The notes under the pieces were generated by a model. The model saw nothing but the letters and a program-made list of their open reading frames with translations, ran no database searches and was not told the DNA's origin. The position numbers were made by a program, and so were the translations under genes. From a virus: a stretch of 64,000 nt of DNA. Shown piece after piece: positions 6,669-59,183 of this stretch (positions within the stretch are counted from its first letter, which is position 1; every line of letters starts with the position of its first letter). The DNA lies in the IMG/VR virus record IMGVR_UViG_3300030098_006179, positions 82,773 through 146,772 of that record; one strand, given 5' to 3'.

Positions 6669-6697
6669 ATATTAAGTTTTTTTTGGGTGATTGTCAA
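6669..6697 (-). promoter_or_regulatory. Sigma-70-type promoter for the SSB-like gene
   Basis: Minus strand: TTGACA (6692-6697), 17-nt spacer with an A8 run, TAATAT (6669-6674). The -35 overlaps the 3' end of the polymerase gene. Unlike several other promoters in the window, this one leaves a short leader carrying an AAGGA ribosome-binding site before the ATG at 6651. Confidence 0.65.
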
Positions 6698-28894: not shown

Positions 28895-29838
28895 TAAAAA
28901 TTTTCAACATACCAATTTACAGTCTTCTTCATTCCTTGACTTATAGAATACATAGGTTTCCATCCTAATTTTGTAATTTTTGTATTGTCTATTGCATATC
29001 TAAAATCGTGAGCAAGTCTATCATTTACGTACTCAATGTGATCTTTAGATCTCACCTTCATTAGTCTGCAAATTTGTTGGACAATTTGAATATTTGTTTT
29101 TTCAGTATTTGCTCCAATGTTGTATACTTCCCCAACATTTCCATCAATAGCAACTTTCCAAAGTGCTCTACAGTGATCCATTACATATATCCAATCCCTT
29201 ACGTTTAACCCTTTTCCATATACTGGAATTTTTTCATCTTGATAAATAGAGTTTATAACTGTTGGAATAAATTTTTCTAAATGCTGTCTAGGGCCATAGT
29301 TATTAGAACATCTAGTTACAACTACTGGGAAATTATATGTCTTAAAATAAGAGAAGCATATTAAATCTGAAGCCGCTTTTGTAGAAGAATATGGAGAGGT
29401 TGGGTCAATAATGGTTTCCTCTGTAAATTTACCTTCTTCGCCCAGCGCTCCATAGACTTCATCTGTTGATACATGAACAAACCTTTTGATTCCGCATCGT
29501 CTACAAGCTTCTAACATGCTCATTGTTCCAACAACATTAGCTTGAACAAATGGAAATGGATTATTTATAGAATTATCAACGTGAGATTCTGCAGCCAAGT
29601 GAAAAACTATATCTATATTAAATCTTGCAAAGATATCTATAATTTCTCCAGTACTTCTGACATCTACTTGTTCAAAGAAGTAATTTGGATTATCTAAGTA
29701 TTCTTTATTATTGCCCCCTGAACCCGCATAAGATAAGCAGTCTACATTAATAACCTTATCTACATTTTTCTTACTTAATAAAAATTCTATTAAATTAGAA
29801 CCAATGAAACCTGATCCACCTGTAACTAAAATATTCAT
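28894..29838 (-). CDS. rfbB: dTDP-glucose 4,6-dehydratase
   Basis: A 314-residue extended SDR enzyme. TGGSGFIGSN is the NAD loop, HLAAESHVDNS and HVSTDEVYG contain the catalytic Thr-Asp-Glu, and PYSSTKAASD the Tyr-x3-Lys. It converts dTDP-glucose to dTDP-4-keto-6-deoxyglucose, the branch point for rhamnose and many amino sugars. It lies between rfbA and the RmlC-like gene. No RfbD (reductase) gene was found, so the end product is more likely another 6-deoxy or amino sugar than rhamnose. Confidence 0.95.
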   Translation of the reverse strand: MNILVTGGSGFIGSNLIEFLLSKKNVDKVINVDCLSYAGSGGNNKEYLDNPNYFFEQVDVRSTGEIIDIFARFNIDIVFHLAAESHVDNSINNPFPFVQANVVGTMSMLEACRRCGIKRFVHVSTDEVYGALGEEGKFTEETIIDPTSPYSSTKAASDLICFSYFKTYNFPVVVTRCSNNYGPRQHLEKFIPTVINSIYQDEKIPVYGKGLNVRDWIYVMDHCRALWKVAIDGNVGEVYNIGANTEKTNIQIVQQICRLMKVRSKDHIEYVNDRLAHDFRYAIDNTKITKLGWKPMYSISQGMKKTVNWYVENF

Positions 29839-38253: not shown

Positions 38254-38940
38254 TTAAATATCTTCATTGTATTTATTTAGTAGGTCTCCTATGTCCCACT
38301 GTTTGGAATTAAATCTACTTTTCTCATAAACTCTATGGCACACTAATATTTCATCAAGATTATAAAAACTGCATTTCATGCTCATTAATTTTAACCACAT
38401 GTCCATGTCTTCGTAGCCCGGATATTGCGCGTCCCACCCCCCGCTTTCAATAATTTTAGATTTTTTAATTATAGAAGTACTGTTTGCTATTTGGTTTTGA
38501 CCTTTTTTTGTTAGCCTTTTTATAAATTCATTTGTTGTTTCTAATGTTGGTCCGGGTCCGTACTTTGTTGGAGTTTTGCCTTCTTCGTCTATATATAAAA
38601 TTTGAGACCCAATAACATCATAATCCCCAATTAGCGGTAATTGTTTTTCTAGTTTATTTTCCATCCAGACATCATCATCGTCCTGTATTGCAACGTTTGA
38701 GTATTTAGATTCTTCTACTAAAAGGTTTAAAGTTTTTGAAACACCTAAAGGTTTTTCTCCGAAGTTAAAAATTTTAATTCTCGAGTCATTAAATGAAGAA
38801 AGAATATTTTGAGTGTTGTCTTTTGATCCGTTAATTCCAACTAGAAGTTCTAGATCTTTAATTGATTGATTTAAAACTGATTTTACAGATTCTTCTATAA
38901 ATCTTTCTCCATTGTACGTTGGTAATAATACAGATATCAT
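38254..38940 (-). CDS. GT2 glycosyltransferase
   Basis: A 228-residue GT-A inverting enzyme. It opens with ISVLLPTYNGERFIEESVKS, has LELLVGINGSKDNTQNIL, the metal motif VAIQDDDDVWM, and a later GGWDAQYPGYEDMDMWLKL, which includes the base (ED) segment. It is the last gene of the 44870-38254 block. The stop is 34 nt from the next promoter. Substrate unknown. Confidence 0.9.
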   Translation of the reverse strand: MISVLLPTYNGERFIEESVKSVLNQSIKDLELLVGINGSKDNTQNILSSFNDSRIKIFNFGEKPLGVSKTLNLLVEESKYSNVAIQDDDDVWMENKLEKQLPLIGDYDVIGSQILYIDEEGKTPTKYGPGPTLETTNEFIKRLTKKGQNQIANSTSIIKKSKIIESGGWDAQYPGYEDMDMWLKLMSMKCSFYNLDEILVCHRVYEKSRFNSKQWDIGDLLNKYNEDI

Positions 38941-39650
38941 AATACTTCACTTGCCCCTTCTCCATGATTACCAAAAGCTTGGTGATCTTTATCTATAGCA
39001 ATAAGTTTAGGCTTGTGATTTCTTGGATGGCTATAAGAATAACAATATCCACAGTCTAATACTTTAGTTGGGGGATTATCTAAAAACCATCTATTAAGAT
39101 GGGATTCGTCATGCCACTTTGCTACGATTTGATTTGCTCTATCAATATCAACATTTGTTGATATCATTTCAGACATTCTTAAAAACTCATTAGTTGATCC
39201 CCCATTAAACCCTCCAGCAAAATATAAGACTTGCTCATTTGGGGCAATGTAAGCTAGGCTGTTTGGATTGGTTTCAACATTACCTCTTCCTCCATATATG
39301 CCGGGATGTACTGTGGCTACTCTATCGCTAAGTATTTCATTACCAACTTCATTTTCAAAAATCATGTCTGCATCGGTATAGAATAAATAATCCTGAGTTG
39401 TTAATAGTTCTTTATTTTGAAAAAACGTATGATACCTCTCTAGAGTAATATATGGCCACTGCTTGTGCTCTTGGGGAACTTTAACAACGTTGTGTTCGGG
39501 AAATTCTTTTGCCGTATCAGTAAATAAAAAATAAGTTACATCACAGTCTTTAAGAAAGTATTGGTCAGCAGTTTCAAAAAGAGCTTTTAAAAAAGTGTCG
39601 TATTTTTGTGTGGCAATTATAAGTAAACCAACTTTTATATTATTTTCCAT
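38937..39650 (-). CDS. GT6-family (ABO-like) glycosyltransferase
   Basis: A 237-residue protein with the GT6 hallmarks: ITLERYHTFF, the DxD site YLFYTDADMIF, HPGIYGG, YFAGGFNGGS, and KWHDESHLNRWFLDNPPTKV followed by CGYCYSY. Animal GT6 enzymes make the A and B blood-group linkages by adding alpha-1,3 Gal or GalNAc to fucosylated galactose. Here the gene overlaps a fucosyltransferase gene (39635-40480) by 16 nt, so fucosylation followed by alpha-1,3 extension is an appealing inference. The DxD is intact (many bacterial members reportedly have NxN). It overlaps the GT2 gene as ATGA. Confidence 0.9.
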   Translation of the reverse strand: MENNIKVGLLIIATQKYDTFLKALFETADQYFLKDCDVTYFLFTDTAKEFPEHNVVKVPQEHKQWPYITLERYHTFFQNKELLTTQDYLFYTDADMIFENEVGNEILSDRVATVHPGIYGGRGNVETNPNSLAYIAPNEQVLYFAGGFNGGSTNEFLRMSEMISTNVDIDRANQIVAKWHDESHLNRWFLDNPPTKVLDCGYCYSYSHPRNHKPKLIAIDKDHQAFGNHGEGASEVL

Positions 39651-40480
39651 GACGCGGGTATCCTGTGTTCTAAATAGTTTTCTTTGTCTTGGTAGGTTTG
39701 CTCAACTCTTTCTCTTGAAAACCAGTTACTTGGGGCTACGATTTTTTTATTGTTGTTTTTATTTAAATATGCTGCCCACCAACTGAAAGAAGAGTTTGCT
39801 ATAATGTTATTTTTGCAGAAAGACATTAAAAATAATTCTAATATATCCTCTTTTATATATTTTTTTGAGTTGGCTTCCCTTTTGTTTTCGTTTAAAGTGA
39901 CCACTTCTTCTTTGTTGTGTTCTCTGAACTCAATATATTTACAATTGTAATCTTTAAAATTTTCTTTGCACCAATCTATGTCGTCAGAAAACACATAGTA
40001 TTCTTCATTCTTTCCAATGTAATCTATAGCTCTGGAGTAGTATTGCATGTTTTGTACTGGATGATAGTTCTCTAACAAAAGATAATCTCCTCTTCTTACA
40101 TGGATAGAGTTTGAATGATTTACGTTGGGGTATTTATCATACAATTCTTTAATAAGCTTTGGTTTTAAATTAAAAAAACTTAAAATTTCATCTCTACAGT
40201 AATCAAAATATAGATGGGATTGAAAATAACCATTTATGTTTATATTTATAGCTGGATTAATTATTCCCCTCATGTCTCTATAGTCAGACTTGCCTTCGTC
40301 TCCGGAAACTTGTGGAGTAATGACCATTTCTTGCAACGGTTTAGTAAAAAATGATTGGTATTCCCAGTGTGGAAAACAGGCCTTTATTCCACATTTTCTA
40401 GCTATACCCAAAGTGGAAGCAATTTGAAACATTTGATTTCCAAGCCTACCTAATTTACCTAAATTGACAAAACTTAACAT
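39635..40480 (-). CDS. GT11 alpha-1,2-fucosyltransferase-like
   Basis: A 281-residue member of GT11. GKLGRLGNQMFQIAST at the N-terminus, SIHVRRGDYLLLENYH as the donor-binding HxRRGDY motif, YYVFSDDIDWCKENF, and NNIIANSSFSWWAAYLN are all conserved. It would use the GDP-fucose made by Gmd and Fcl. It precedes the GT6 gene, which often acts on fucosylated acceptors. No membrane segment. Confidence 0.93.
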   Translation of the reverse strand: MLSFVNLGKLGRLGNQMFQIASTLGIARKCGIKACFPHWEYQSFFTKPLQEMVITPQVSGDEGKSDYRDMRGIINPAINININGYFQSHLYFDYCRDEILSFFNLKPKLIKELYDKYPNVNHSNSIHVRRGDYLLLENYHPVQNMQYYSRAIDYIGKNEEYYVFSDDIDWCKENFKDYNCKYIEFREHNKEEVVTLNENKREANSKKYIKEDILELFLMSFCKNNIIANSSFSWWAAYLNKNNNKKIVAPSNWFSRERVEQTYQDKENYLEHRIPASWKII

Positions 40481-44938: not shown

Positions 44939-45265
44939 ATGAGTTTAATAATAGTATCAGAGTTAATTAATCCTCCTTCTGAGGGTTTGTACTTTAGGCA
45001 TCTTACAATGGTGTCTTCATTGGATTTTAAGCAGGACGTTCTTATTGAATCAGAAAAAGAATATGTCGATATTTATTATAATTATTTAAAAAAGAAAGGA
45101 TTGTATGATTTCGTGGAAGAATTTGTGCAGCCCGAATGGAGAGTCGATGGTATAAGAATAGATACAGAACTAAACTATCCAAAAACAATTAAAACTAATT
45201 ATATTAGATATGAAAATGTAGAAAATTTATTAAAACAAATAAAAAATTTAAGCCTTATTGTTTAA
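44939..45265 (+). CDS. Small protein, unknown
   Basis: A 108-residue soluble protein starting at ATG 44939 and ending in an 18-nt overlap with the convergent membrane-protein gene. An N-terminal hydrophobic strand (SLIIVSELINPP), a helix with YVDIYYNYLKKKGLYDFVEE and an FVQPEWRVDGIRIDTELNYP segment are visible. I do not recognise a family. Confidence 0.55.
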   Translation: MSLIIVSELINPPSEGLYFRHLTMVSSLDFKQDVLIESEKEYVDIYYNYLKKKGLYDFVEEFVQPEWRVDGIRIDTELNYPKTIKTNYIRYENVENLLKQIKNLSLIV

Positions 45266-45538
45266 ATTATCTATTTTTTCTTCTAGTCGATCAAATCTAT
45301 CGTTCATTCTTTCTGAAAACATTTTAAAATCTTCTTTAGAAACGTACTTTTCAGGTAATTGTAGTGCTAATTCTGTATACTTTGTGGTGATTTTTTCAAC
45401 ATCTTCATGATGTTTCTTCATGAGTTCGTTGTGTTCTATTTTAATTTCATTGATGTGGCCCAAAAGCATCTTAAAAACCCATCCTCCCATGAGTGTGACA
45501 ACGCCAACAGCAATGTTTACAAGTATCTGGTAGTCCAT
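45248..45538 (-). CDS. Small membrane protein with coiled coil
   Basis: From ATG 45538 (96 residues; the frame extends to ATG 45565). One membrane segment, VNIAVGVVTLMGGWVFKML, lies at residues 6-24, followed by a charged helical region (EHNELMKKHHEDVEKI and FDRLEEKIDNL). One N-terminal membrane segment plus a charged coiled coil is common in small phage lysis proteins (holins, spanins), but nothing here proves that. ATG 45538 lies 5 nt after a TAATAC hexamer. Confidence 0.55.
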   Translation of the reverse strand: MDYQILVNIAVGVVTLMGGWVFKMLLGHINEIKIEHNELMKKHHEDVEKITTKYTELALQLPEKYVSKEDFKMFSERMNDRFDRLEEKIDNLNNKA

Positions 45539-45582
45539 GACATGTATTACACTATCGTTGGGCATATTTAAAAAAATTTTTA

Positions 45583-45639: not shown

Positions 45640-45969
45640 ATGTCGAGCATATATGATACAACATCAAATGATTATTCTAGTCATTTTAGATCAATTAATA
45701 TAACTGACTCTGGAACTTTTAGTTTAAACGCTGAAGCTGTTCGAAAAGTCTCTATTTATAACGATGGAGGAGAAAAGGTCAGGGTTTATAAAACTGAAAA
45801 CTATACCGCAACAACTTCAGGAACCTCCAACGCTACTGGGATTTGGATTGGGGTAGAAGACGGGGTTACTTTTAATGTTGCTGGAATAGGAAATAGTGAT
45901 CAGGTTTCTGTACAAATGCATAATTCGTCCAAAACTCCTTACGAATTAAAATATATTATTTTTAAATAA
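45640..45969 (+). CDS. Small virion-type protein, unknown
   Basis: A 109-residue protein rich in Ser, Thr, Asn and Gly with alternating beta strands (SGTFSLNAEAVRKVSIYNDG, IWIGVEDGVTFNVAG). It is like small phage tail or decoration proteins. It is the first of four plus-strand genes (45640-53191) that appear to form one structural operon. Confidence 0.55.
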   Translation: MSSIYDTTSNDYSSHFRSINITDSGTFSLNAEAVRKVSIYNDGGEKVRVYKTENYTATTSGTSNATGIWIGVEDGVTFNVAGIGNSDQVSVQMHNSSKTPYELKYIIFK

Positions 45970-45990: not shown

Positions 45991-46449
45991 ATGTCTTTAT
46001 TTGAGCACAATAAACCCGTAATAAGAAAAAAAAATAACGTTATTGAAATAGGTAGCGAAACCCAACAAACAGAAGTAAAGGGTGATTTAGAGATACGGGG
46101 AACAGTTCATGTAACTAATCCGGCATTTATTCCAAAGTTTGAGGCGGGAGAAAAAATGAAAATTTTCGCTTTAAATAATGGTTCTGCGGGTTGGGTAAAT
46201 CATTCTCCTCAATCTTTAGTTAATTTTAGCGGTACGGCACTTGAGGATTTTATTTATGTGCAAAGCACGGTTGGTTTTGAAAAGGGAAATGACTGGGTTT
46301 TAAATCCCGGCGGCTCTAATATGGAAAGCGGAAAAGTTGAATTTAAATTAGGCTCAAAGTTGTTTATATCTGGAAGTGGAACAAATAGTGGATTATTTTA
46401 TAATCACGATAAAGGAGAAAGAATCATAAACTTGACGTATGCCTTGTGA
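45991..46449 (+). CDS. Probable virion protein, unknown
   Basis: A 152-residue beta-rich protein. NVIEIGSETQQTEVKGDLEI, DLEIRGTVHVTN and IPKFEAGEKMKIF look like a short fibre-shaft repeat region. It has an AAGGA ribosome-binding site 8 nt before ATG 45991, one of few clear ones in the window. Its stop overlaps the GTG start of the next gene (GTGA). Confidence 0.55.
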   Translation: MSLFEHNKPVIRKKNNVIEIGSETQQTEVKGDLEIRGTVHVTNPAFIPKFEAGEKMKIFALNNGSAGWVNHSPQSLVNFSGTALEDFIYVQSTVGFEKGNDWVLNPGGSNMESGKVEFKLGSKLFISGSGTNSGLFYNHDKGERIINLTYAL

Positions 46450-47636
46450 GTTTAGAAAATCACACAAAATATACAAGCAGCCCAACCGGACAACATAAAA
46501 ATGTTCTAGGTGGGGGAGGAATTTTTACGGAAAGTGGATCGCCAGTAGGGTTAGAAAAAGTTAGAATTATAAATAAAAACGAATCAGATTCTGACAATTT
46601 AATAATTAATAGAACAAGCTCAGATATAAATTTTGATAGTAGAACTACCACTAATCAAATAGTAAATTTTTGTAAAACTTACAATAGCGGATTTAATGGA
46701 GAAATTTTTGGAGATGCTATTATTTATTATCCGGGGTATTCGTACGACTCAAGTTATTGTTATAATCTTTTTGCTGTAACTGGAAATTTTTCGGGACAAA
46801 ATGGAACAACTTCAAAATTAAGATTTTATTTTTCACCAGAAGATCCAGAAAGTTTTTTAGTTGGGTCTGGCATAAGTGCTGGAGACAATGAAGTGTTTTT
46901 TCCAGAAATGCAAAAATCAATTTTAAGAAAACACTTTTATTATATAGAAAAAGAACAAGAAGTTTTTTCTGATCGTTACGACTCTTGGGTGTCTGGCAGC
47001 GGTAATTATCTTGATGTAAAATTTGGAACAAATAATCAAGAGACAGGTACAATAACTGGAATTTCAGGAAATCACTTTCTTTTAGAGAACCCGATTACTA
47101 AAGATGTTTTACACGGGGATAGAATAGTTTCAACGAATACTTTGCATACGCCTCCGTCTGGAGAAACTGGATATGCTCAAAATTTTCAAGTTAGAATTGA
47201 CAATAATAGCGATGGAAATAGCAGATTCTACATAGCCGGATCAGGTGTTACAGGGGGGTGTCATTTAGGTGGTACATTTACTGGCGATGGATATACTTTT
47301 TTTGAAACTCCTGTGATTGACGTATACAGAGGATTCACTTACTTTTTTAACCAACACCATTCAACAAATCACCACGAATATATGATGTTCTCTTATACCT
47401 CTGGAGGTCATCATGAGGGAGGCTCTGTTATAACCGGAAAATATAAGGTTGATCAGGGTGGATCAAATTATTGTTTTAATAATTATTGTAGTTATCATTG
47501 TCCTGACGAACAGACTTTTATGATTCCAATTGATGAAAGTTCGCCGGACAAAATTTATTATTACGCTTCAGGTACAAATCACGTGGGTGGAACCGGGTAT
47601 TTGAATGTAATAACTTCTGGAGATGGAGCTAACTAA
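46446..47636 (+). CDS. Virion protein with cupredoxin-like C-terminal domain
   Basis: A 396-residue protein starting at GTG 46446. The last 110 residues include VYRGFTYFFNQHHSTNHHEY, a His-rich segment, and SPDKIYYYASGTNHVGGTGY. This is similar in layout to a domain repeated in structural proteins of marine phages (G-x-TYxF then YYYCxxHxxMGG) that looks like a cupredoxin; whether copper binds is unknown. The N-terminal part is a Ser/Gly/Asn-rich beta region. It precedes the 1850-residue repeat protein by 2 nt. Confidence 0.6.
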   Translation: MSLENHTKYTSSPTGQHKNVLGGGGIFTESGSPVGLEKVRIINKNESDSDNLIINRTSSDINFDSRTTTNQIVNFCKTYNSGFNGEIFGDAIIYYPGYSYDSSYCYNLFAVTGNFSGQNGTTSKLRFYFSPEDPESFLVGSGISAGDNEVFFPEMQKSILRKHFYYIEKEQEVFSDRYDSWVSGSGNYLDVKFGTNNQETGTITGISGNHFLLENPITKDVLHGDRIVSTNTLHTPPSGETGYAQNFQVRIDNNSDGNSRFYIAGSGVTGGCHLGGTFTGDGYTFFETPVIDVYRGFTYFFNQHHSTNHHEYMMFSYTSGGHHEGGSVITGKYKVDQGGSNYCFNNYCSYHCPDEQTFMIPIDESSPDKIYYYASGTNHVGGTGYLNVITSGDGAN

Positions 47637-47638
47637 TT

Positions 47639-50600
47639 ATGGCAACTTGGAGATTATACGGACAGGGTAGAGCGGACGTTGATAACGACGGTTACTGTGC
47701 GGGTAGTGATAGTTATGGTGATTATGTATACCTACAAGGTCTGAGGGGTTATACTAGTTGTGCTAACGCGGCAAGCGCTTCAAAAGATGATACTCAGGGA
47801 TCAGGAGATAATAGTTCTTTATATGTAAAGAGGATTAATACGGGTAAAATTTTAGCTAGCAATGGTTCTACCGAAAGAACTTCATTGAATGATGTTGTTG
47901 TTGGTGATTTTATATACGCTTGCAGTTCTGGTGGCACTAATTATCCAATAGCTTTAACGGGTGCGGATGATGATTGTGATGTGTGCGGTAGAGACAATAA
48001 TGAAGGCACGGTTTATGACAATGTCGTTGTTGATAATAATAGTGAGCCTTGGTTCATGTTGTATACTAGCGATGGTGCTTCCGGAATTATTGTTAAAATT
48101 GATGTTACCTCAAATTCGCCCGGAGAAATTTTAGCGATAAGTAATAATCATGACACTTGCGCTTCTGGAGGAGGAGCATCAGCTTCTGCTTCAGCTTCTG
48201 GTACTATCTCGGGTACTGTTTCGGGGACTAAATCGGGTTCTGTCTCTGGTACGGTTTCTAATAGCGCAAGCTGCTCTCCGGACTGTAATCAATATTATCC
48301 AAATAGCGCTACAGGGTTTACCTGTGAGTACTATATAACAGACAGTAATGACAACCAACAGTTTGAATTAAATGGAGTAGCCTATGATGTTGATGACAAA
48401 TGCCCAATGTTTACGATCGCAAAGTATTGCGAAAGAGAAATATGTATTGGAGACTCTTCTTTAGCTAGTAGTGCTGCTGGGGCTCAATTAAGATTTACTA
48501 CAGAAGACGATCCTAAAAATAAAGGAACGCTCACTGAATCTGGAACCAAAGAAATAACATCGGGAATAACTAGGGTTGGAGCACCCGGAACAGCTGGATC
48601 TACTGTTAAAATAAGACCAGATAGTAATTGGCCAGAAAATACAAAAATTTACGTATACTTTGGAGATTCTAATGGCGCTGATATTTTCGGCGGATGGATA
48701 TATGTTGTGCCAAGTAGCGATTGCGCGCCTTGTTCTCCGGGGTCAGCTTCTGGTTCTGTTTCTGGAACCATATCTGGAACCAAGTCGGGTTCTGCTTCTG
48801 GTACTGTTTCTGGAACCATATCTGGAACCAAGTCAGGTTCTGCTTCTGGCACTGTTTCTGGAACCATATCTGGAACCATATCTGGAACCAAGTCGGGTTC
48901 TGCTTCTGGAACCGTTTCTGGAACCAAGTCAGGTTCTGCTTCTGGAACCGTTTCTGGAACCATATCTGGAACCAAGTCAGGTTCTGCTTCTGGAACCGTT
49001 TCTGGAACCGCTTCTGAATCAATATCTGGAACTATATCTGGAACGGCTTCTATTTCTGGAACTGTATCTGGCACCAAGTCGGGTTCAGTCTCCGGCACTG
49101 TTTCTGGAACTGTCTCTGGAACTGTTTCTGGAACCATATCTGGAACTAAATCAGAATCTGCGTCAGCTTCAAATTCAGCCGCGCCTACTTGTCTTACCAC
49201 TGCTTACGCGTTAAAAGTCAGTATTGTTGATGGAGCCTTGGTTGTCAAGGAATACGATGGATCAAGTTACGTTGTGAGGGGCAATACTTTATATGTAGGA
49301 AAATATTGTACTATAGTTTTTGATATTAGTGACAGTTCGAATGTTTCTCATGTAACTTTTACTAAAAGTGGTTTGAATTATTCTGGCGGAGTATCTTATC
49401 AGGGAAGCGCTGGTAATCCCGGTGCCCAAACTAGAATTGAAATTCAAGGCGATTTACCTTATCCAACGGCGCTTGTATATTTTCAAAGTTCTGGAGGTAC
49501 GAGTTATGCGGGTGGATCAATTAATATAGTTTCAGGGTGCGAATGTCCCGGATCGCCTTCTGGCACGGCTTCTGGAACCAAGTCGGGTTCTGCTTCTGGA
49601 ACCATATCTGGGACCAAGTCAGGTTCTGCTTCTGGAACCGTTTCTGGAACCAAGTCGGGTTCTGCTTCTGGTACTGTTTCTGGAACCGTATCTGGAACCA
49701 TATCTGGAACCAAGTCGGGCTCAGTCTCTGGAACCGTTTCTGGAACCGTTTCTGGAACCATATCTGGAACCAAATCGGGTTCAATTTCTGGAACCGTTTC
49801 TGGAACCGCTTCTGGAACCAAGTCGGGTTCTGTTTCTGGAACTTTTTCTCAAAGCATTTCTGGAACATTGTCAGGATCTAGATCTACATTTAATCTTCCA
49901 GCGTTGGTGTTCTTTGCTTGGGTTCATTCAAGAGAATATACTTTTGACAACATTGGTGGGGATCCAGAATTTGAAGAATGGTCCAAAAAAACAACAAATA
50001 AAGATGGAGAAAGTGGAGTATACGAAGACGGAGGAGTAACAAAATATAGACAGCACTCTCCGCTGGTTGGAGTAAGTTTTGATTTTAACATAGCAAACAC
50101 AATTCAATTCAAGCCTGACCCCGATCAGGAAGGAGTTAGTTTGAGTTTGTATGATGTGTGGAAAAGATTATATGATCCTACAAAATATGAAACAGTTGGT
50201 GGCGTTTCATACGCATGGGGAGATCAAACTTGGAAAAAACTGAGAAAATTAGTGGTTGCTGAATTCATCAAAGCGATGAGGGCAGAGTTGAAAAAGGTAG
50301 ATGTAAAATTAGAAGATGATTGGCAAGAAATTTTTTACCAACTATCTCGTGGCGGAGGCGGATATGAAAGCTGTTTAACAAACTCTGCGAAGAACGAAAG
50401 CCACAATTGGAAAAAATCAGATTTAGTATTAAGAGTTAGACAATTATATGGAGGCAATAACGTGTGTGACTCGGGGGTTTATGAAGACGAATGGACTATT
50501 TATAATAAATTATATAAAGTTGGAAACCAAAATAATGATCAAGTGTTAACTTGGAGTACCAAGGGGCAAAGAGATCAAAATTGGATATTCTGTGACGAAG

Positions 50601-53191
50601 CACTTATTCCTAGATTCAAGATTAATTCTAGCAATTTTAAAGAAACCAATTGGCCCCCAGAGGGTGTTGGCTCCCTTGATGTATTTTTAGGTAACATCGC
50701 AGATATTTCGCACTGGGAACACGAACCAAGTGCCACAGCAAAAGTGAACAATGATAAGAAGTCTCCAAATCTAGACCAAACTTATAAAGAGAAAAGCGAG
50801 GATCAACTTTGTGAATTATTGATGCCTTGTGATATTAAGAGTACGGTGTCATTGCCGGGTTTGCCACCGGGAACAAGAGGGGCTTCGCTTTCTCAGTGGG
50901 TAATAAAAATGCCCCACATGGGTGATGGACATGGTGGTGCTGTTCCTGCGGACAATTTAAGTGATGGATTTTTTGTTGCAGATGACGGCGACGGTAAAAA
51001 CGACGCAATTCAACCGTGCGAAACACCAGTTGACGATTGTCCAAAGAAACCCGTGTTAGCAAAGCCTAGCGTAACAGAAAGCACGCAATGTCTAAGAGCT
51101 ACGCCTTTATGGTTTAACTTTAATTTAACAGAGAAAGTTTGGATTCCGGGCGCAAAAGACTCGGTAGATAAAATGTGGAGTAGGAATTCTGGCATCACTA
51201 AAGTTTTAACATTCTATTATGGAAATAAAGCTGCTAAATTTGACAACGACAACATTATTGATCAGGGTGATTTTGGTAATCCAGACGGAAATTTAACAAA
51301 CTATTTAGAAACCCTTTATGATAAACCTGCGGATAACAACAATCTTCCCGCGCTCGCAGGTATTGATGAAAATTCACAAGCAGATGATATGGATTATGTT
51401 CTTCCGCCAAATAATGGGGCATGGAAGCTGAAGTACAATGCCGCAAATATAGGATTGAATTCTATTAGACCCTTTATGGGATTAGGTGAATTATCATTTA
51501 ATATGGGACAAGTAGTGAAAGGCTTCACCACCGGATGGAAAAGTATTCTATATTATAATATGGAACAAGATAAAAAACCTTTTTGTCTATATAGTCAATT
51601 TAATCAATACAACAAAAGCAGGGCTAACATAACGAGTACTCGTGGTTTAAATTTTGCAGAAGAAAAAGACTTAAGTATTCCTCTATATCCAATTTTAGTA
51701 AAAGACTATAAAACAAACGATAATACAAACGGAGATAGATATTTAGCTGCCGACATTGAAGCTGTAGATCCCAAACCTCCAAAATCAGAGCAAGATGTTA
51801 TAGATGAAGAATTAGAACCTCTACATACTCAATGTTGGTACGGAGAGTCAGAGATTATGGTTTCAATAAGCTCAGACTCAGGAACAGATGTTGACGCATA
51901 TATAGACAGAGTAAAAATTAGTGTTGGAGTTGGAATGTACATGACCAATGATGGAGACGGAATTAAAATCAAACCCGAAATTACAGATAATGAAGGGAAT
52001 ATAGATTTTGACGCCGCAAGTAAAATGGCTGCTTATATAAATGTTGATTTTGGGGGTGCTTGGGTCGATGACAATGGTGAAGCCGGAAATTACGCCGAAT
52101 TTATAAAAGACATAGGCAGCAAGCACGAATTCGCGTTTACGTTTGATGAAATCAATAAAAAACCAAACACTCTCAAACTTGGAAAACCAGCAGGATTTAG
52201 TGGTGTAGATGAATTTACCCAAGGCTTTTCACAAAACCAACAAAAAGGCAGTATTCGTGACAGTAATTGGCTCGCCGTTTGCTCTAAAGGTTTGGCGAGT
52301 TTGGCTACTTGGAGTTCTGATCAAATGATCACCGATAAGAATATAATTGGTAAGCTTGGAGTAGATAACTCATTTGAGTTGCATTACTGGAGAATAAGAA
52401 GAGGCTACGCTAGATTTTCAAGAGACTATAGTGAAAATATGAATGTGAAAACGCCGCCACCAATAGATGGAATTGATGCAACCTATCAAACTAAAACTGT
52501 TTCTTTCATTGATAGTGATGGTGATGATGTTAATGACACTGTTTTATTTGAGATCGATAAAGAAAACTTGAGTTATAATTCTTATAGAGAAGCCGACGGC
52601 ACTATAGCTGACAAGATTGGAATTTTAATAAGAGGTATAATCAAAGCTCATTTTACTCATGGCGTGTGGCAACCATCTTCGAATACAGCCCCTTTAACCA
52701 CTAGAGTAAACTCACTATATCGTTATGGAACAAGGGCATATAAAGAAACTATGGCTTTTGGAAAAAACAACGGCGATTACGGTTTGTTTGTTGGAGATTT
52801 TGGCGACGAAGAAAATATTCAGTTGCAGAGCGAAGGAGTGTTTCTTGCTTCGAAGAAGCAAATGTCTCCAGATACTATAAACCCTTCCCATAATCCAGCT
52901 TGCATGTATTACTATGGCTGGAGTCAGCTAAACGATCAATACGCTCTTGATATCTATTCATATATGCACAGAGCATATCTTGTTGATGGAAACGAAACAT
53001 TTGACATGCTTTATCTACACGGTCCAGTAGGCGCTTGGGGAACCGCATGGGATAGCAAATTTGGCGCATATAAAATTGCTGGTCAAGTCAATTTTAAGCA
53101 GGGTGGAGATGAAACTTGGCCTTCTATGTCTTTCCCGGTTATATCTTATTCTAATAAAGTGGGTCAAGACTATGACGAAGATGAGGTATAG
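47639..53191 (+). CDS. Giant Ser-Gly-Thr repeat virion protein
   Basis: A 1850-residue protein, the largest in the window. Residues 1-180 are a Cys-containing beta domain. Three blocks of SGT/SGS/SGTKSG tripeptides (about 180-211, 368-514 and 638-749) separate two further globular domains with Cys pairs (CSPDCNQ, CECPGS). Residues 750-1850 are a large non-repetitive region rich in Asp, Asn and Trp with no domain I recognise. The repeats would make extended, Ser/Thr-rich linkers like those in surface or fibre proteins. Ser/Thr content makes them possible O-glycosylation targets of the phage's own glycosyltransferases, which is speculation. The gene ends 57 nt before the next promoter and GT11-like gene. 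Confidence 0.75.
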   Translation: MATWRLYGQGRADVDNDGYCAGSDSYGDYVYLQGLRGYTSCANAASASKDDTQGSGDNSSLYVKRINTGKILASNGSTERTSLNDVVVGDFIYACSSGGTNYPIALTGADDDCDVCGRDNNEGTVYDNVVVDNNSEPWFMLYTSDGASGIIVKIDVTSNSPGEILAISNNHDTCASGGGASASASASGTISGTVSGTKSGSVSGTVSNSASCSPDCNQYYPNSATGFTCEYYITDSNDNQQFELNGVAYDVDDKCPMFTIAKYCEREICIGDSSLASSAAGAQLRFTTEDDPKNKGTLTESGTKEITSGITRVGAPGTAGSTVKIRPDSNWPENTKIYVYFGDSNGADIFGGWIYVVPSSDCAPCSPGSASGSVSGTISGTKSGSASGTVSGTISGTKSGSASGTVSGTISGTISGTKSGSASGTVSGTKSGSASGTVSGTISGTKSGSASGTVSGTASESISGTISGTASISGTVSGTKSGSVSGTVSGTVSGTVSGTISGTKSESASASNSAAPTCLTTAYALKVSIVDGALVVKEYDGSSYVVRGNTLYVGKYCTIVFDISDSSNVSHVTFTKSGLNYSGGVSYQGSAGNPGAQTRIEIQGDLPYPTALVYFQSSGGTSYAGGSINIVSGCECPGSPSGTASGTKSGSASGTISGTKSGSASGTVSGTKSGSASGTVSGTVSGTISGTKSGSVSGTVSGTVSGTISGTKSGSISGTVSGTASGTKSGSVSGTFSQSISGTLSGSRSTFNLPALVFFAWVHSREYTFDNIGGDPEFEEWSKKTTNKDGESGVYEDGGVTKYRQHSPLVGVSFDFNIANTIQFKPDPDQEGVSLSLYDVWKRLYDPTKYETVGGVSYAWGDQTWKKLRKLVVAEFIKAMRAELKKVDVKLEDDWQEIFYQLSRGGGGYESCLTNSAKNESHNWKKSDLVLRVRQLYGGNNVCDSGVYEDEWTIYNKLYKVGNQNNDQVLTWSTKGQRDQNWIFCDEALIPRFKINSSNFKETNWPPEGVGSLDVFLGNIADISHWEHEPSATAKVNNDKKSPNLDQTYKEKSEDQLCELLMPCDIKSTVSLPGLPPGTRGASLSQWVIKMPHMGDGHGGAVPADNLSDGFFVADDGDGKNDAIQPCETPVDDCPKKPVLAKPSVTESTQCLRATPLWFNFNLTEKVWIPGAKDSVDKMWSRNSGITKVLTFYYGNKAAKFDNDNIIDQGDFGNPDGNLTNYLETLYDKPADNNNLPALAGIDENSQADDMDYVLPPNNGAWKLKYNAANIGLNSIRPFMGLGELSFNMGQVVKGFTTGWKSILYYNMEQDKKPFCLYSQFNQYNKSRANITSTRGLNFAEEKDLSIPLYPILVKDYKTNDNTNGDRYLAADIEAVDPKPPKSEQDVIDEELEPLHTQCWYGESEIMVSISSDSGTDVDAYIDRVKISVGVGMYMTNDGDGIKIKPEITDNEGNIDFDAASKMAAYINVDFGGAWVDDNGEAGNYAEFIKDIGSKHEFAFTFDEINKKPNTLKLGKPAGFSGVDEFTQGFSQNQQKGSIRDSNWLAVCSKGLASLATWSSDQMITDKNIIGKLGVDNSFELHYWRIRRGYARFSRDYSENMNVKTPPPIDGIDATYQTKTVSFIDSDGDDVNDTVLFEIDKENLSYNSYREADGTIADKIGILIRGIIKAHFTHGVWQPSSNTAPLTTRVNSLYRYGTRAYKETMAFGKNNGDYGLFVGDFGDEENIQLQSEGVFLASKKQMSPDTINPSHNPACMYYYGWSQLNDQYALDIYSYMHRAYLVDGNETFDMLYLHGPVGAWGTAWDSKFGAYKIAGQVNFKQGGDETWPSMSFPVISYSNKVGQDYDEDEV
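48177..49885 (+). repeat. Three blocks of SGT-type coding repeats
   Basis: Blocks at about 48177-48270, 48742-49178 and 49552-49885 encode tandem tripeptides built from Ser-Gly-Thr, Ser-Gly-Ser and Ser-Gly-Thr-Lys units. The DNA itself repeats almost exactly in 9- to 36-nt units such as TCTGGAACCATATCTGGAAC. Such sequence is prone to slippage and recombination, so the block length may vary between strains. It also creates long but meaningless open frames on the other strand. Confidence 0.9.
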
Positions 53192-53247: not shown

Positions 53248-54204
53248 GTGAAAAAATCATTAAACCATATTCACTGGATAGGCAGATTCGGAAACAGAAT
53301 GTTTCAGGTAGCCTATGGAAAAATGTTTGAAAAAGCATTTGGTGTAGAATTTAGAGTATGTTCCGAATGGGAGGGAGATACCCTTTTTAAAAATTGTAAA
53401 TCAAAATTAATTTCAAATAAATTAAGAGAAGATTTGGTAACCTACGGAAAAGATCCAAAAGGTCAAACACTAGAAGGTTGGCACGAAATAGTCAACAAGC
53501 ACGATAAGAAAATAAAAAACATGTGGCCATATGATTTTGGCACTTGGGCAAAACCAGATACAGATTTATGGATGGAGTGTGGTTGTTGGGACTCTGAATA
53601 TATTTTTGATAAATATAATAAAAAAGATTTAAAAAAAATATTTGAGTTTTCTGATGAAGTAAAAAAATCCGACTTATACAAAAGGGCAGAAGATAAACAG
53701 GGAACTTATGACATAGCCCATTTGAGAAGAGACGATATAGTATTTGAGGATGCATCTCACAACTGGAACTATCCAGTAATATCTAGACAGTCTTATGAAA
53801 AAGCATTTCAAATGTTTGGGTTTGACAGAAGAAAAATAGAGTGGATATCTGATGATTTTCCAAGCCATCCAAACATGGGGTGGAATTATCCTACGGGGCA
53901 AGTTAAACAAGAAGATATTTTTTATGACTTTTTTCCCGATTTTCTTAAATTGTATTTTGCTAGAACTATATTTAGAGCAAATTCATCTTTTAGTTGGTGG
54001 GCTTCATTTTTAGCTCCAGTAGCTACAGTTTACAGTCCGATACTTCACGATAGAATTCTATATAACCAGCAAGGAAAAGAGTTGAATTGTGAATTTATAC
54101 AATCAAACACTCCACATTTTATGCATGTTTTAGGATACTCTTTTGGAGAGGAATGCCCGCATGAGGGGTATCATACCTGTCCTTTCATAAATATAAAAGA
54201 TTAA
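53248..54204 (+). CDS. GT11-like fucosyltransferase, divergent
   Basis: A 318-residue protein. HWIGRFGNRMFQVAYG matches the N-terminal GT11 motif and TIFRANSSFSWWASFLA the C-terminal one, but the HxRRGDY donor motif reads IAHLRRDDIVF, with Gly to Asp. The rest differs from the GT11 at 39635-40480. A fucosyl- or related transferase on a GDP-sugar is likely. It starts with GTG; any later start would cut the first motif. It is paired with an FkbM methyltransferase 2 nt downstream, which may methylate the added sugar. Confidence 0.8.
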   Translation: MKKSLNHIHWIGRFGNRMFQVAYGKMFEKAFGVEFRVCSEWEGDTLFKNCKSKLISNKLREDLVTYGKDPKGQTLEGWHEIVNKHDKKIKNMWPYDFGTWAKPDTDLWMECGCWDSEYIFDKYNKKDLKKIFEFSDEVKKSDLYKRAEDKQGTYDIAHLRRDDIVFEDASHNWNYPVISRQSYEKAFQMFGFDRRKIEWISDDFPSHPNMGWNYPTGQVKQEDIFYDFFPDFLKLYFARTIFRANSSFSWWASFLAPVATVYSPILHDRILYNQQGKELNCEFIQSNTPHFMHVLGYSFGEECPHEGYHTCPFINIKD

Positions 54205-54206
54205 TT

Positions 54207-54911
54207 ATGTTTTCTCAATTTGGACAAGACAAATACGTTATTGAAAATATTTTCAAAGGTAAAAAGAATGGTTTTTACATTGATGTGGGTGCTCATGATG
54301 GAGTGTTTATATCTAACACAAATTTACTAGAGAAAAAATTTAAATGGAAAGGCGTATGTATTGAACCAAGCTCTTCCTCTTCTATGCTTAAATTAAATAG
54401 AGATGAAGATTGTAAGATTGTATCTAATTATTGCGTTTGCGATAACGAGGTTTCAAATCAAATAGTTAGACTGAGAGAATTTTTTCCAAATGAAATAAGC
54501 GAAACAATTTTTAAAGATTTATATGAAGAACCCCATTGGGCTAAAGAGCTAGAGAAGGGGGAAAATTATAAAGATAAATTAAAAAAATGCAAAACACTTG
54601 ATGAGATATTAGAAGAAAGCTCTTGCCCTGAAAATATTGATTATATTTCGATAGATACTCAAGGTTGCGAGTTGCTCGTAGTGAAAGATTTTCCATTTAA
54701 AAAGTGGAATGTAAAAGCTTTTACCATAGCTAATGACATGTATCAAGGTGGAGAAAAAGAAAAGAATAGAAATAAAACTAAAAAGCTTTTGGAAAAGAAT
54801 GGATACGTTTTAGATAGATCATTTTCTCTTCATCATTTAGATAAAAATAACTGGGAAAACAATTACAAAGACCAGATTCTTGAAGATTTATATATTAAAC
54901 AAGATAATTAA
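54207..54911 (+). CDS. FkbM-family methyltransferase
   Basis: A 234-residue methyltransferase of the FkbM type: FSQFGQDKYVIENIFKG, GFYIDVGAHDGVFISNT, WKGVCIEPSSSS and NIDYISIDTQGCELLVVKDF are all conserved. These enzymes O-methylate sugars. The gene follows the GT11-like gene by 2 nt. Its last 17 bases overlap the end of the convergent gene at 54895-55200. Confidence 0.9.
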   Translation: MFSQFGQDKYVIENIFKGKKNGFYIDVGAHDGVFISNTNLLEKKFKWKGVCIEPSSSSSMLKLNRDEDCKIVSNYCVCDNEVSNQIVRLREFFPNEISETIFKDLYEEPHWAKELEKGENYKDKLKKCKTLDEILEESSCPENIDYISIDTQGCELLVVKDFPFKKWNVKAFTIANDMYQGGEKEKNRNKTKKLLEKNGYVLDRSFSLHHLDKNNWENNYKDQILEDLYIKQDN

Positions 54912-55229: not shown

Positions 55230-55700
55230 TTGAATTTTTTTAAAAGATTATATAAAAATAAATTTTTAAGAGTAGTGGTATTGTTAATAATTTTATTATT
55301 ACCATTTACTTTAGATTATAGATTTGTGGTTGTTGATGGCGACAGTATGTACCCAACGTATGATCACGGAGAAATAATTATACAAGAAAGAATTTCATCT
55401 CTGGGAGAATACTGGTCTCCTCAGAGACAAGATGTTATTGTTGTTTATGATGGTACAGAAAAGATAATTAAAAGAGTAATAGCTGTTTCGGGAGAGGCGG
55501 TAAGAATAGATGCAAACGGTAATATTTTGGTAAACGAAAAAAAATATTCTGACGCTTTTTCTACAAAGACATTAGGAAGCATTCCCAAGACGTTTAGGCG
55601 ACTTGGAAAGGGGGAATACTGGGTTGTAGGAGACAACAGGTCTGAGTCTTGGTATGGTATTATTAATATTAAAAATGTAGAAGGCAAGGTTCTATATTAA
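55230..55700 (+). CDS. lepB: Signal peptidase I (S26 family)
   Basis: A 156-residue membrane protease. The start is TTG 55230, the only one before the N-terminal membrane segment (residues 13-28, LRVVVLLIILLLPFTL). The catalytic Ser39 is in VDGDSMYPT and the general base Lys81 in KIIKRVIAVSGE, which also fits box D. YWVVGDNRSESWYG is the box E equivalent. It is at the short end for the family. It would sit in the host inner membrane with the active site outside and remove signal peptides from exported proteins. I found no clear phage substrate with a signal peptide here. It overlaps the end of nrdB by 4 nt, convergently. Confidence 0.9.
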   Translation: MNFFKRLYKNKFLRVVVLLIILLLPFTLDYRFVVVDGDSMYPTYDHGEIIIQERISSLGEYWSPQRQDVIVVYDGTEKIIKRVIAVSGEAVRIDANGNILVNEKKYSDAFSTKTLGSIPKTFRRLGKGEYWVVGDNRSESWYGIINIKNVEGKVLY

Positions 55701-56704
55701 AAATCGTCCTCTAGCGCTCCACTACTCTGATAATCTTTAACCTTTCTTTCAAAGAAATTGGTCATTGCTCCCGTATCAACAACTTCAGAGAGCCAAGGGA
55801 ACGGATTCTGATCGCTATCAAAACGGAAGTCAATGCCAATTCCTTCAAGACGTCTATTGCCTATGTATTGCATATAGTCAACAAACATCTCTGCGTTTAA
55901 GCCAAGAATGCCGCGTGGAAGCACATCATGCGCATAAGCTATCTCTAACTCTACGGCTTTTTTGATATGATTAACGGTTTCTTGCTCAAACTTTTTCGTC
56001 CACACCGTTGGGTATTGTTTTTTAATCGTGTTTACAAGATACGTTCCAAATTGAATGTGAAGGCTTTCATCCCTTAAGGTATATCTAATTTGATCTGACA
56101 ATCCGGGCAATTTGTTTTGTCTACCCAATGCAAGCAGCATTGCAAAGCCGCTAAAGAAAAATGTACCTTCGCAAACAATATAGTAGCTAATTAAATTGCG
56201 TAAAAATTCTCTCTTACCTTCTGTGCTTTTGGTAGAAAAGTCTTGTCTATTTACGTCTGTTGTAATTTCCATCAAGAAATCATCCTTAGCTTTTATACTT
56301 GGTATAGTATTGTAAGCCTCATAGACTTCTGAAACTTTGAGAGAGTATGAGTCACAGCATGTAACAACCGTCCAGTTATGTAAGGATTCCTCATACGCTT
56401 GTCTTAAAACGTATTGTCTGCACTCTGCGTCTGTTACCCATCTCGCAACAGTAAGTAGTAAATTATTGCCAACCAAGGACTCACTTCCAGCAAAAAAGCC
56501 AAGACATCTTTTAACAAGTAATTTTTCATCGTCAGTTAAATCTCCGTTTTTCCATTGATCAACATCGTTTCCCATGTTGATTTCCGCTGGGCTCCAGTTA
56601 TTAGCAACGCCTTTTATAAAAAGATCCCAAGCAAATTGATGTTTGTGGGGTAAAATCTGATTTACTCCCGCTACTTCTTCTCCTAAAATTAATCCATCCT
56701 TCAT
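55697..56704 (-). CDS. nrdB: Ribonucleotide reductase small subunit, class Ic-like
   Basis: A 335-residue NrdB from ATG 56704, directly after the nrdA stop; an in-frame GTG lies at 56722. The six metal ligands line up with E. coli spacing: E75, E106, H109, E179, E213 and H216. The first ligand is Glu, where E. coli has Asp84. The position of the radical Tyr122 is V113. Glu as first ligand and no tyrosine are the traits of the Chlamydia-type (class Ic, Mn/Fe) subunits. Alternatively it could be inactive. It works with the NrdA next to it to make dNDPs. Confidence 0.93.
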   Translation of the reverse strand: MKDGLILGEEVAGVNQILPHKHQFAWDLFIKGVANNWSPAEINMGNDVDQWKNGDLTDDEKLLVKRCLGFFAGSESLVGNNLLLTVARWVTDAECRQYVLRQAYEESLHNWTVVTCCDSYSLKVSEVYEAYNTIPSIKAKDDFLMEITTDVNRQDFSTKSTEGKREFLRNLISYYIVCEGTFFFSGFAMLLALGRQNKLPGLSDQIRYTLRDESLHIQFGTYLVNTIKKQYPTVWTKKFEQETVNHIKKAVELEIAYAHDVLPRGILGLNAEMFVDYMQYIGNRRLEGIGIDFRFDSDQNPFPWLSEVVDTGAMTNFFERKVKDYQSSGALEDDF

Positions 56705-56705
56705 A

Positions 56706-59183
56706 TTATTGACAACTTTCACATGTGGGGTCTAAGATTGAGCAAGCTTTAGGAGTAGACCCACTATCATCACCATAACTTGTATTACTATTATTATTGT
56801 TACTACCTTCTTGAGTAGTTGCTGTTGATTTTTCAATTTCACTGGCTGATTTAGTTCTTAAATAATACGTACTTTTCAGTCCATTATTTCTAGCATGAAT
56901 ATACAAATCGTTCAAGTACTTTAATGAAGTTTTATTATTAAACAAGTTTAATGATTGTCCCATATCAATCCATTTTTGTTTGGCAGCCGCGCTTTCAATC
57001 AGCTTGAATTGATCGTGATCAAACGCTGTGCAGTACCTATCTTTTAGTTCTTGTGGAATTTCTCCATTTAAATTTAAAAGGTTTCCATCAACAGCTTTAA
57101 GCATCTCAACAAGAGTGGGGTTCCATATTCCAATTTGTTTACATTCTTTTACAAACCATTCATTTACAATCATAAGGTTTCCAGATTTATTTTCGTAAAC
57201 AAACAGTGTTGAAAAATCTGGTTCAATAGATGTTGAGCAGCCTTGAATATAAGAAATGGTTGCAGTTGGAGCAATAGCCATTGTGTTACTGTTTCTCATT
57301 CCAAATTCTTTTATGTTAGACCTAAGCTTTTTCCAGTCTAAATCTGGAGTAAAAGTTCTTCCCCTGTGGGAAATAGGCTTTTGGTCAAGGTACTTCATTA
57401 AATTTTTATATGTATCAATAGGTAAAACGCCTTGATCCCAAAGTGATCCAGAGTAGGTGGAATAACATCCCTTTTCTTTTGAAAGATTGTTTGAGTTCAT
57501 GATGCAATGGTAGGAAATAAACTCGTACAATTCGTCAGAAAATTTTACAGCTTCATCGCTAGAAAAATTTACTTTATAAGAATGAAAAACGTCAGCCCAT
57601 CCCATGCTTCCAGCGCCAACTGGCCTATGGGAGAGATTAGATTTTCTTGCTTCTTTAGTGGGATAAAAATTTAAATCAATAACATTATCAAGCATCCTCA
57701 TTTGGGTTGCTATTGTTTTCGCAAGCTTTTTAAAATCTAGCTTGCCGTTTTCTTTTAAATGTTCTTTTAAATTTACAGAGCTTAAGTTGCACACCGCAGT
57801 TTCTCCAACCTCAACTTTATCTCCTTGCTCGTATTTTGATGGTTTAGTATGCAAAAAGATTTCCGTGCATAGATTAGAGCTATGAACAATACCCTCGTGA
57901 ATATTAGAGTACCTCATGTTTGCGTTGTCTTTGAATGTCATCCAAGGGTGTCCTGTTTCAAACAGGATTTTTAACATTTTTTTCCACAAATCTTTAGCTT
58001 TAATTATCTGGTAGTTTTCTATTTCTCCTGAGTCTGCTTTTTTGCAATATTTAATATAAGCCTTATCAAAATTTTCTCCATACAACTCATGTAAATCTCT
58101 TACATCAGATGGAGAAAACAAGTACCAATCTCCGTTTTCTTGGACTCTTCTAATAAATAAATCTGGTAGCCAGTTTGCGGTATTCATATCGTGACACCTT
58201 CGGCGTTCGTCTCCGGTGTTCTTTTTAAGATCTAAGAATTCATGTATGTCTAAATGCCAAGGTTCAATATACGCGCATCCTGCTCCGGGGCGTTTGCCCC
58301 CTTGATTAACAGCAACTAATAAATCGTTATAAATTTTTAGCCAAGGAATTAACCCACTTGATGTACCGTTTGTTCCTTTAATGTGGGAACCAGATGATCT
58401 AAAATTAGTAACGTCAAATCCTAAGCCTCCTGCAAATTTGGATTTCCTAGCTTCTTGCCAAGCTCCATCAAAAATACCATCAATGCTATCGTCAAAAGTA
58501 TTTAAATAGCAACTTGATAATTGGCTCCTAACGCTTCCACTATTAAACAGCGTTGGGGTTGATGGGCAAAGGTGAAATTGTGAAATTGCATTGTAAAATT
58601 CTATGCATTTTTCTTCTTTGTTTTTTTCGTTTAAAGCTAGCCCCATAGCAACCCTCATCCAAAATGATTGAGGTGATTCAAGTCTCCTGCCTTTTAGCTT
58701 GTGAAAGTATCTATCAAATAGAATTTGTAATCCAAGATACTTAAATTTAAAATCTCTTTTTAACACTAAAGCTTCTGACAATTTCTTTAAATCAAATTTT
58801 AAAAGTTCTTTATTTAGAATTCCTTCTTTTACTAGAAGTTTAATGTTTCTAATAAAGGAAAGTCTATATTGGTGATCAAATGCGTCCTTATCTACGCTCA
58901 CCCCAAAGACCTCTTTGTGAATATTGCCCAGTAATAATCTTGCTGCTACGTGTGAATAATTTGGATCTTTTTCAATCTTTGTCCTAGCAGACATGATAAG
59001 AGCCTTATCAATCTCTTTTGTTGGTATTTTTTCGTATAGCTGCACGTGGGCATCAATGACAATCTCGCTTGCAGACACGTTTTCTAGGCCCTCACAGGCT
59101 CTCTGGGCGCATAAATTTACCTTATTGATGTCTAGCTTCTGAAGTCTTCCGTTCCTCTTTTTTACTTGAAGTATATCGCTCAT
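56706..59183 (-). CDS. nrdA: Ribonucleotide reductase large subunit, class I
   Basis: An 825-residue NrdA. Residues 1-95 form one ATP-cone (VKKRNGRLQKLDINKVNLCA). Active-site segments are SQLSSCYLN (first Cys of the redox pair), SNLCTEIFL (the radical Cys and the Glu) and AVCNLSSVNL (second Cys). The C-terminal tail CSILDPTCESCQ carries the shuttle cysteines. Length is normal. A Ser/Asn-rich linker of about 25 residues comes before the tail. It lies directly before nrdB. Confidence 0.96.
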   Translation of the reverse strand: MSDILQVKKRNGRLQKLDINKVNLCAQRACEGLENVSASEIVIDAHVQLYEKIPTKEIDKALIMSARTKIEKDPNYSHVAARLLLGNIHKEVFGVSVDKDAFDHQYRLSFIRNIKLLVKEGILNKELLKFDLKKLSEALVLKRDFKFKYLGLQILFDRYFHKLKGRRLESPQSFWMRVAMGLALNEKNKEEKCIEFYNAISQFHLCPSTPTLFNSGSVRSQLSSCYLNTFDDSIDGIFDGAWQEARKSKFAGGLGFDVTNFRSSGSHIKGTNGTSSGLIPWLKIYNDLLVAVNQGGKRPGAGCAYIEPWHLDIHEFLDLKKNTGDERRRCHDMNTANWLPDLFIRRVQENGDWYLFSPSDVRDLHELYGENFDKAYIKYCKKADSGEIENYQIIKAKDLWKKMLKILFETGHPWMTFKDNANMRYSNIHEGIVHSSNLCTEIFLHTKPSKYEQGDKVEVGETAVCNLSSVNLKEHLKENGKLDFKKLAKTIATQMRMLDNVIDLNFYPTKEARKSNLSHRPVGAGSMGWADVFHSYKVNFSSDEAVKFSDELYEFISYHCIMNSNNLSKEKGCYSTYSGSLWDQGVLPIDTYKNLMKYLDQKPISHRGRTFTPDLDWKKLRSNIKEFGMRNSNTMAIAPTATISYIQGCSTSIEPDFSTLFVYENKSGNLMIVNEWFVKECKQIGIWNPTLVEMLKAVDGNLLNLNGEIPQELKDRYCTAFDHDQFKLIESAAAKQKWIDMGQSLNLFNNKTSLKYLNDLYIHARNNGLKSTYYLRTKSASEIEKSTATTQEGSNNNNSNTSYGDDSGSTPKACSILDPTCESCQ

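Follow-up and report, generated by a model that had tools for sequence, protein, structure and literature searches.

An 1850-residue phage protein with strictly alternating Ser/Thr blocks as a proposed virion fiber with possibly glycosylated stalks

The gene at positions 47639-53191 of the phage DNA analyzed here (the window, 64,000 bases, corresponding to bases 82773-146772 of a 162,379-base virus record) encodes an 1850-residue protein in which Ser or Thr occupies every second residue of three separate blocks ([ST]-x alternation). We give about even credence to the whole reading that this protein is a virion adhesin or fiber with stalks like the serine-rich repeats (SRRs) of glycosylated adhesins, with glycosylation likely but open. 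The virus is a tailed phage: the structural module of the record gave matches to a terminase, a baseplate hub and collagen-like tail fibers.

Architecture of the protein and its repeat blocks

The ORF list and the translation agreed on a single unbroken plus-strand frame of 1850 codons, the length given in the original prediction. The frame was divided into the following features (all on the plus strand).

47639-53191: 1850-residue multidomain protein with three [ST]-x blocks, proposed virion adhesin or fiber (open frame and alternation)
47639-48178: N-terminal Cys-containing region, aa 1-180, beginning MATWRLYGQG (translation)
48179-48277: repeat block 1, aa 181-213; Ser/Thr at 17/17 on-register and 0/16 off-register positions
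48278-48742: globular domain D1, aa 214-368, with CAPC at its end just ahead of block 2; aligns with D2
48743-49177: repeat block 2, aa 369-513; 73/73 on-register and 0/72 off-register; 48-nt higher-order repeat
49178-49552: globular domain D2, aa 514-638, with CEC at its end just ahead of block 3; paralog of D1
49553-49885: repeat block 3, aa 639-749; 56/56 on-register and 0/55 off-register
49886-53188: C-terminal region, aa 750-1850; no match in the phages or viral_contigs collections

The three blocks sum to 289 residues, in line with the predicted figure of about 290, and Ser or Thr was found at 146/146 on-register and 0/143 off-register positions, that is, with a strict period of two. The blocks had been described as nearly pure SGT/SGS tripeptides, a description that has to be revised. 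Tandem Repeats Finder (TRF) detected a 12-nt unit with higher-order periods of 36, 48, and 60 nt in the repeat DNA, so the repeat unit is a tetrapeptide, SG[TS]x, in which x is mostly Val, Ile, Lys, or Ala; Ser, Gly, and Thr together make up 72% of the block residues. Block 2 contains a two-residue slip of the tetrad phase, and the parity is never broken within any block. When 3336 ORFs of the collected loci were shuffled, not one contained such an alternating segment, and the alternation is not a product of chance. Third codon positions vary within the blocks while Ser and Thr are kept, which is suggestive of selection, and only suggestive because recent duplication has also enlarged the blocks.

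D1 and D2 aligned with 28.8% identity over 125 aa (E 4e-4) and are paralogs. Neither the whole protein nor its C-terminal 1101 residues had a relative in the viral_contigs or phages collections, and a single-sequence AlphaFold2 model of the C-terminal region was uninformative (pLDDT 29) and was discarded. We propose that aa 750-1850 form the receptor-binding or anchoring part. No signal-peptide-like hydrophobic stretch was visible by eye at the N-terminus of the translation. The O-glycosylation motif of the Bacteroidetes type, D[ST][AILVMT], was present at just three sites, all of them outside the repeats.

Alternating proteins in related phages

We scanned 3336 ORFs from collected loci, and then the reconstructed gene lists of fifteen records, for the same alternation. 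At least ten other phages of this uncultured marine family carry large near-strict [ST]-x proteins (G006, G011, G014, G022, G025, G026, G029, G058, L409, and L410), and short or mixed alternating segments were present in G033, G061, and G062. The residues between the Ser/Thr positions differ from phage to phage: Pro and Ala in G029, Pro and Asn in G022, Ala and Glu in G025, and His, Pro, and Val in G058. Ser or Thr was counted at 379/382 on-register and 5/371 off-register positions in G029, and at 126/126 and 22/124, respectively, in one G058 protein, and the parity switches between some neighboring segments in G022, G025, and G029. Because the relatives are near-strict and show these switches, the complete lack of off-register Ser/Thr is a trait of the 1850-residue protein, not of the family. 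Very large proteins of the same architecture were also observed, namely a 3362-residue protein (L132:2218-12306) and one of at least 4002 residues (G029:44735-56740).

The repeat genes lie in tail or fiber clusters in G006, G011, L409, L410, and G058 (174-178 kb), among head-tail genes in G022, and between DUF559 and DnaB genes in G025, G026, G058 (33-37 kb), G029, and, for its first repeat gene, G006. Globular domains are common to G006, G011, and G033 and to G025 and G058; in a repeat-masked comparison, none was shared with the 1850-residue protein, whose globular parts had no homolog among the relatives' repeat proteins. Likewise, phrog_15511 (phage proteins of unknown function) matched the [ST]-x proteins of G006, G011, and G058 and not the 1850-residue protein. 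A Cys residue stood within eight residues ahead of 29 of the 40 linkers, against a background of 21%; because the phages are related, the linkers do not count as independent cases.

Some candidates were left out because they did not alternate or did not look like genes: pure Thr or Ser runs in G028 and G039, and a CAC-repeat ORF in G022. At the DNA level, the SGTx pattern was found in at least 119 stretches of viral_contigs; because only about 14 of the ORFs there alternate and their contexts vary, SGTx alone does not mark the family. A Flavobacteriales host was considered and set aside as too weakly founded, the only terminase match in genome_contigs being a 77-kb contig in a Flavobacteriales metagenome-assembled genome.

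Blocks 2 and 3 also matched phrog_430 (baseplate hub and tail lysozyme; E 9e-7 for the whole protein and 1e-3 to 3e-3 per block), and gp5 spike chains were retrieved at E 0.04-0.8. In gp5-type spikes, octad VxGxxxxx repeats form a trimeric beta-helix, and the blocks might accordingly be a beta-structured fiber of this type, not stalks. We consider this improbable: the matches are low-complexity and their scores weak, every 16 residues a Lys occupies an octad position that the helix would have to bury, the relatives' linkers contain much Pro (TPSNTPSN, SPTASLSP), a residue that a helix of this kind would not tolerate, and 0/4 complete relatives tested matched phrog_430. The [ST]-x blocks more likely serve as stalks, a role that we hold with reasonable confidence.

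Genomic setting and virion location

The distance between nrdB and the conserved gene g105 is 10.1 kb in this phage; among 44 relatives, the median distance is 1.5 kb and the largest 3.2 kb. The 1850-residue protein is thus encoded in a cassette of about 9 kb that is an insertion between these two genes, and the extra genes of the cassette (for the 109-, 152-, 396-, and 1850-residue proteins, a glycosyltransferase, and a methyltransferase) are all on the plus strand.

45248-45565, minus strand: conserved gene g105, left border of the insertion (synteny)
45640-45969, plus strand: 109-residue protein, first cassette gene
45991-46449, plus strand: 152-residue protein, possibly fiber-related (weak match to a G011 protein, E 0.0017)
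46446-47636, plus strand: 396-residue protein with a C-terminal domain like virion proteins (G013 and PSS2 matches)
53248-54204, plus strand: GT11-like glycosyltransferase, candidate fucosyltransferase (phrog_2644; likeness to the GT11 of the window)
54207-54911, plus strand: FkbM-family methyltransferase (PF05050, E 8.8e-15, 55.7 bits against a gathering cut-off of 22.7)
55230-55700, plus strand: signal peptidase S26 homolog (PF10502, E 1.3e-20)
55697-56722, minus strand: nrdB, right border of the insertion (PF00268 and synteny)

The C-terminal domain of the 396-residue protein matched a collagen-like protein of the relative G013 (E 9.7e-5) and a cyanophage PSS2 protein encoded just downstream of the tape measure gene (E 8e-3), and the gene is a probable tail-fiber gene by these similarities. 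It had no relative in viral_contigs, and its AlphaFold2 model (pLDDT about 30) was discarded. Because of this resemblance to the G013 and PSS2 proteins, the cassette probably codes for virion parts. With no globular homolog and no confident model, the placement of the 1850-residue protein in the virion rests on these neighbors and on the analogous, non-homologous repeat proteins in the tail and fiber modules of relatives. On both grounds it is probably a virion gene, as implied when the phage was predicted to decorate its own fiber.

Against the virion reading, the structural module of the record ends at about position 2414 of the window, leaving the repeat gene outside it, and some relatives' repeat genes lie between replication genes (DUF559 and DnaB). 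Together with the nearby S26 gene, these positions would also suit a protein that is secreted or placed on the host surface during infection, with the signal peptidase processing it or another protein. This is very unlikely, given the lack of an N-terminal hydrophobic signal by eye, the analogs within fiber clusters of relatives, and the presence of S26 in the nrdB-g105 gap of 23/44 relatives without a repeat protein there, which assigns S26 to the conserved spot and not specifically to the cassette. Elsewhere in the window, DNA polymerase III alpha is apparently split, with the core and finger domains at 6694-9264 and the PHP domain at 10221-10985.

Glycosyltransferases and the glycan island

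The gene was predicted to lie just before a fucosyltransferase gene and a sugar methyltransferase gene. A glycosyltransferase gene does begin 56 bases downstream and is followed by the FkbM methyltransferase gene, but the identity of the former as a fucosyltransferase is weaker than was claimed. Its product had no Pfam match at E 0.1 and hence did not match the GT11 profile PF01531. It matched phrog_2644 (E 2.4e-8), the Pfam-confirmed GT11 of the window at 39635-40480 (24% over 266 aa, E 6e-7), and cyanophage glycosyltransferases, one of which is annotated as family 11, and the two window enzymes have GR-GN-MFQ-, H-RR-D-, and ANSSFSWWA-like motifs in common. In view of this similarity without a PF01531 match, we call it GT11-like and do not assign it to GT11. 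The 56-base gap contains a TTGACA-like box, and co-transcription with the 1850-residue ORF is therefore not assured.

The window also contains a glycan island coding for GDP-mannose dehydratase, GDP-fucose synthase, RmlA, RmlB, aminotransferases, GT6, and GT11, with the following features on the minus strand.

17393-18448: GDP-mannose 4,6-dehydratase (GMD) homolog (PF16363, E 1e-108; TIGR01472, 347 bits against a cut-off of 415)
18448-19413: GDP-L-fucose synthase homolog (NF047922, 478 bits against a cut-off of 500)
27986-29838: RmlA and RmlB, dTDP-sugar synthesis (TIGR01207 and TIGR01181, above cut-off)
39635-40480: second GT11 glycosyltransferase, within the island (PF01531, E 4.7e-23)

The GMD and GDP-fucose synthase assignments are predicted from strong matches that fall slightly under the curated NCBIfam cut-offs. 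A histo-blood-group-type GT6 gene adjoins the GT11 gene (38937-40480), and G013 has both in the same order. About 28 kb separate g105 from RecA in the window; comparison of window 17393-45565 with the relatives' loci L134-L213 showed a variable hotspot between g105 and GMD/RecA with few to many sugar genes, the larger islands of relatives being undercounted because the flanks examined were 10 kb at most. A 628-residue protein encoded at 4259-6145 had weak glycosyltransferase and DUF4214 matches and is found at 47-57% identity in five relatives.

The SRR-type sequence of the blocks, the adjacent GT11-like gene, and the GDP-fucose pathway genes of the phage are the points in favor of glycosylation, and sugar decoration is plausible because related phages have unrelated proteins built on the same alternation. 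The claim that the island makes the glycan for this particular protein was not supported. Homologs of GMD and GDP-fucose synthase occur in G013 and G020, neither of which has a repeat protein in the sequence examined; the GT at 53248 matched only one of 50 records, weakly, namely G013, and had no homolog in the other repeat-bearing relatives among them. The same two observations favor an alternative in which the protein is the same virion fiber with its [ST]-x linkers unmodified, as extended, soluble, protease-tolerant spacers, the glycosyltransferase and methyltransferase acting elsewhere, for example on host surface glycans. On- and off-register residue kinds both vary between relatives, as they would in a spacer. 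The 0/143 off-register count goes beyond what simple selection for solubility would demand, although recent duplication explains part of it, and glycosyltransferase genes lie within the relatives' fiber clusters. We regard unmodified spacers as a substantial minority possibility, and O-glycosylation of the blocks by phage enzymes as plausible, at somewhat less than even likelihood.

The transferase genes in fiber clusters belong to the GT4 family. GT4 is encoded on the opposite strand in the fiber clusters of all five family carriers, each with an [ST]-x protein nearby; it is absent from the window's phage. Examples are L117:1752-2876 (minus strand), L096:15176-16297 (plus strand), L409, and L410. 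The co-occurrence of GT4 and [ST]-x proteins gave a hypergeometric value of 0.011, which ignores the kinship of the carriers. We considered GT4 as strong support for [ST]-x glycosylation and discounted it: cyanophage homologs (48-51% to the relatives' GT4; fiber-cluster GT4 was observed in NC_031927 and NC_047714) lie between collagen-like and tail-fiber genes, beside a 2OG-Fe(II) oxygenase gene, and the proteins tested beside them lack the alternation. As L412 also has collagen-like genes and no [ST]-x protein in its flank, the GT4 link is given little weight. GT4 may act on collagen-like repeats, and its position with the oxygenase gene beside collagen-like genes suggests hydroxylation and glycosylation of collagen-like fibers. 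A transferase-fiber link in these phages is plausible; the specific pairing in the window, with the 1850-residue protein as acceptor of the adjacent enzymes, is something that we infer and consider doubtful.

Proposed model

In the reading that we favor, the protein would resemble beads on a string, with small Cys-containing globular domains spaced by three extended stalks and followed by a large C-terminal region. The stalks would hold the globular domains off the particle and display about 146 side-chain hydroxyls. Phage enzymes may attach O-glycans to at least part of them in the host cytoplasm, with the GT11-like enzyme and the FkbM methyltransferase as candidates, and such O-glycosylation would stiffen and shield the stalk. 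More speculatively, the marine phage family might independently use SRR-like [ST]-x stalks in unrelated giant fibers, to which phage enzymes would add sugars in the cytoplasm with no Sec-linked glycosylation system involved, with globular domains swapped freely and the alternation kept. Glycosylation of the stalks would mean that phages produce SRR-type glycoproteins through sugar pathways of their own, which would give a reason why these genomes carry large glycan islands and offer a means to hide or stiffen fibers. Even without sugars, a rule of Ser/Thr at every second residue that is kept when everything else differs is a constraint on the structure of phage fibers that can be put to the test.

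Comparison with known systems

Glycans on phage virion proteins have a precedent in mycobacteriophages (Freeman et al. 2023, cited in PMC12619734), where, according to the citing account, the sugars are found at the C-terminal ends of the capsid and tail tube subunits and not on [ST]-x fiber stalks. The cyanophages S-CAM7 and ACG-2014f have GT4 and a 2OG-Fe(II) oxygenase amid collagen-like and tail-fiber genes and share the GT4 homolog with the fiber clusters of the relatives; they differ in that no [ST]-x alternation was found in the proteins tested, and the window's phage has no GT4.

The closest likeness is to the serine-rich repeat proteins (SRRPs) of Gram-positive bacteria, which have long stretches, hypervariable both in their length and in their repeat unit, where Ser strictly alternates with Ala, Val, Thr, and other residues; alternating serine is a published hallmark of glycosylated SRR adhesins, and the blocks match this type of sequence, as predicted (PMC6973325). 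In both cases, alternating regions separate or carry globular binding domains, and the 146/146 and 0/143 counts agree with the alternation of SRRPs. The present protein differs in being a phage gene product known here from its sequence, in using both Ser and Thr with Gly at many off-register positions, and in having no signal peptide visible by eye. SRRPs are directed to the accessory Sec system by a signal peptide at the N-terminus and are accompanied by SecA2/SecY2 and by the cognate priming transferases GtfA/GtfB. Among the selected island genes and neighbors that were scanned with Pfam and NCBIfam, none was named as SecA2/SecY2 or GtfA/GtfB. Because these secretion and priming-transferase features were not found, we do not count the 1850-residue protein as an SRRP, and describe its stalk as SRR-like in sequence terms.
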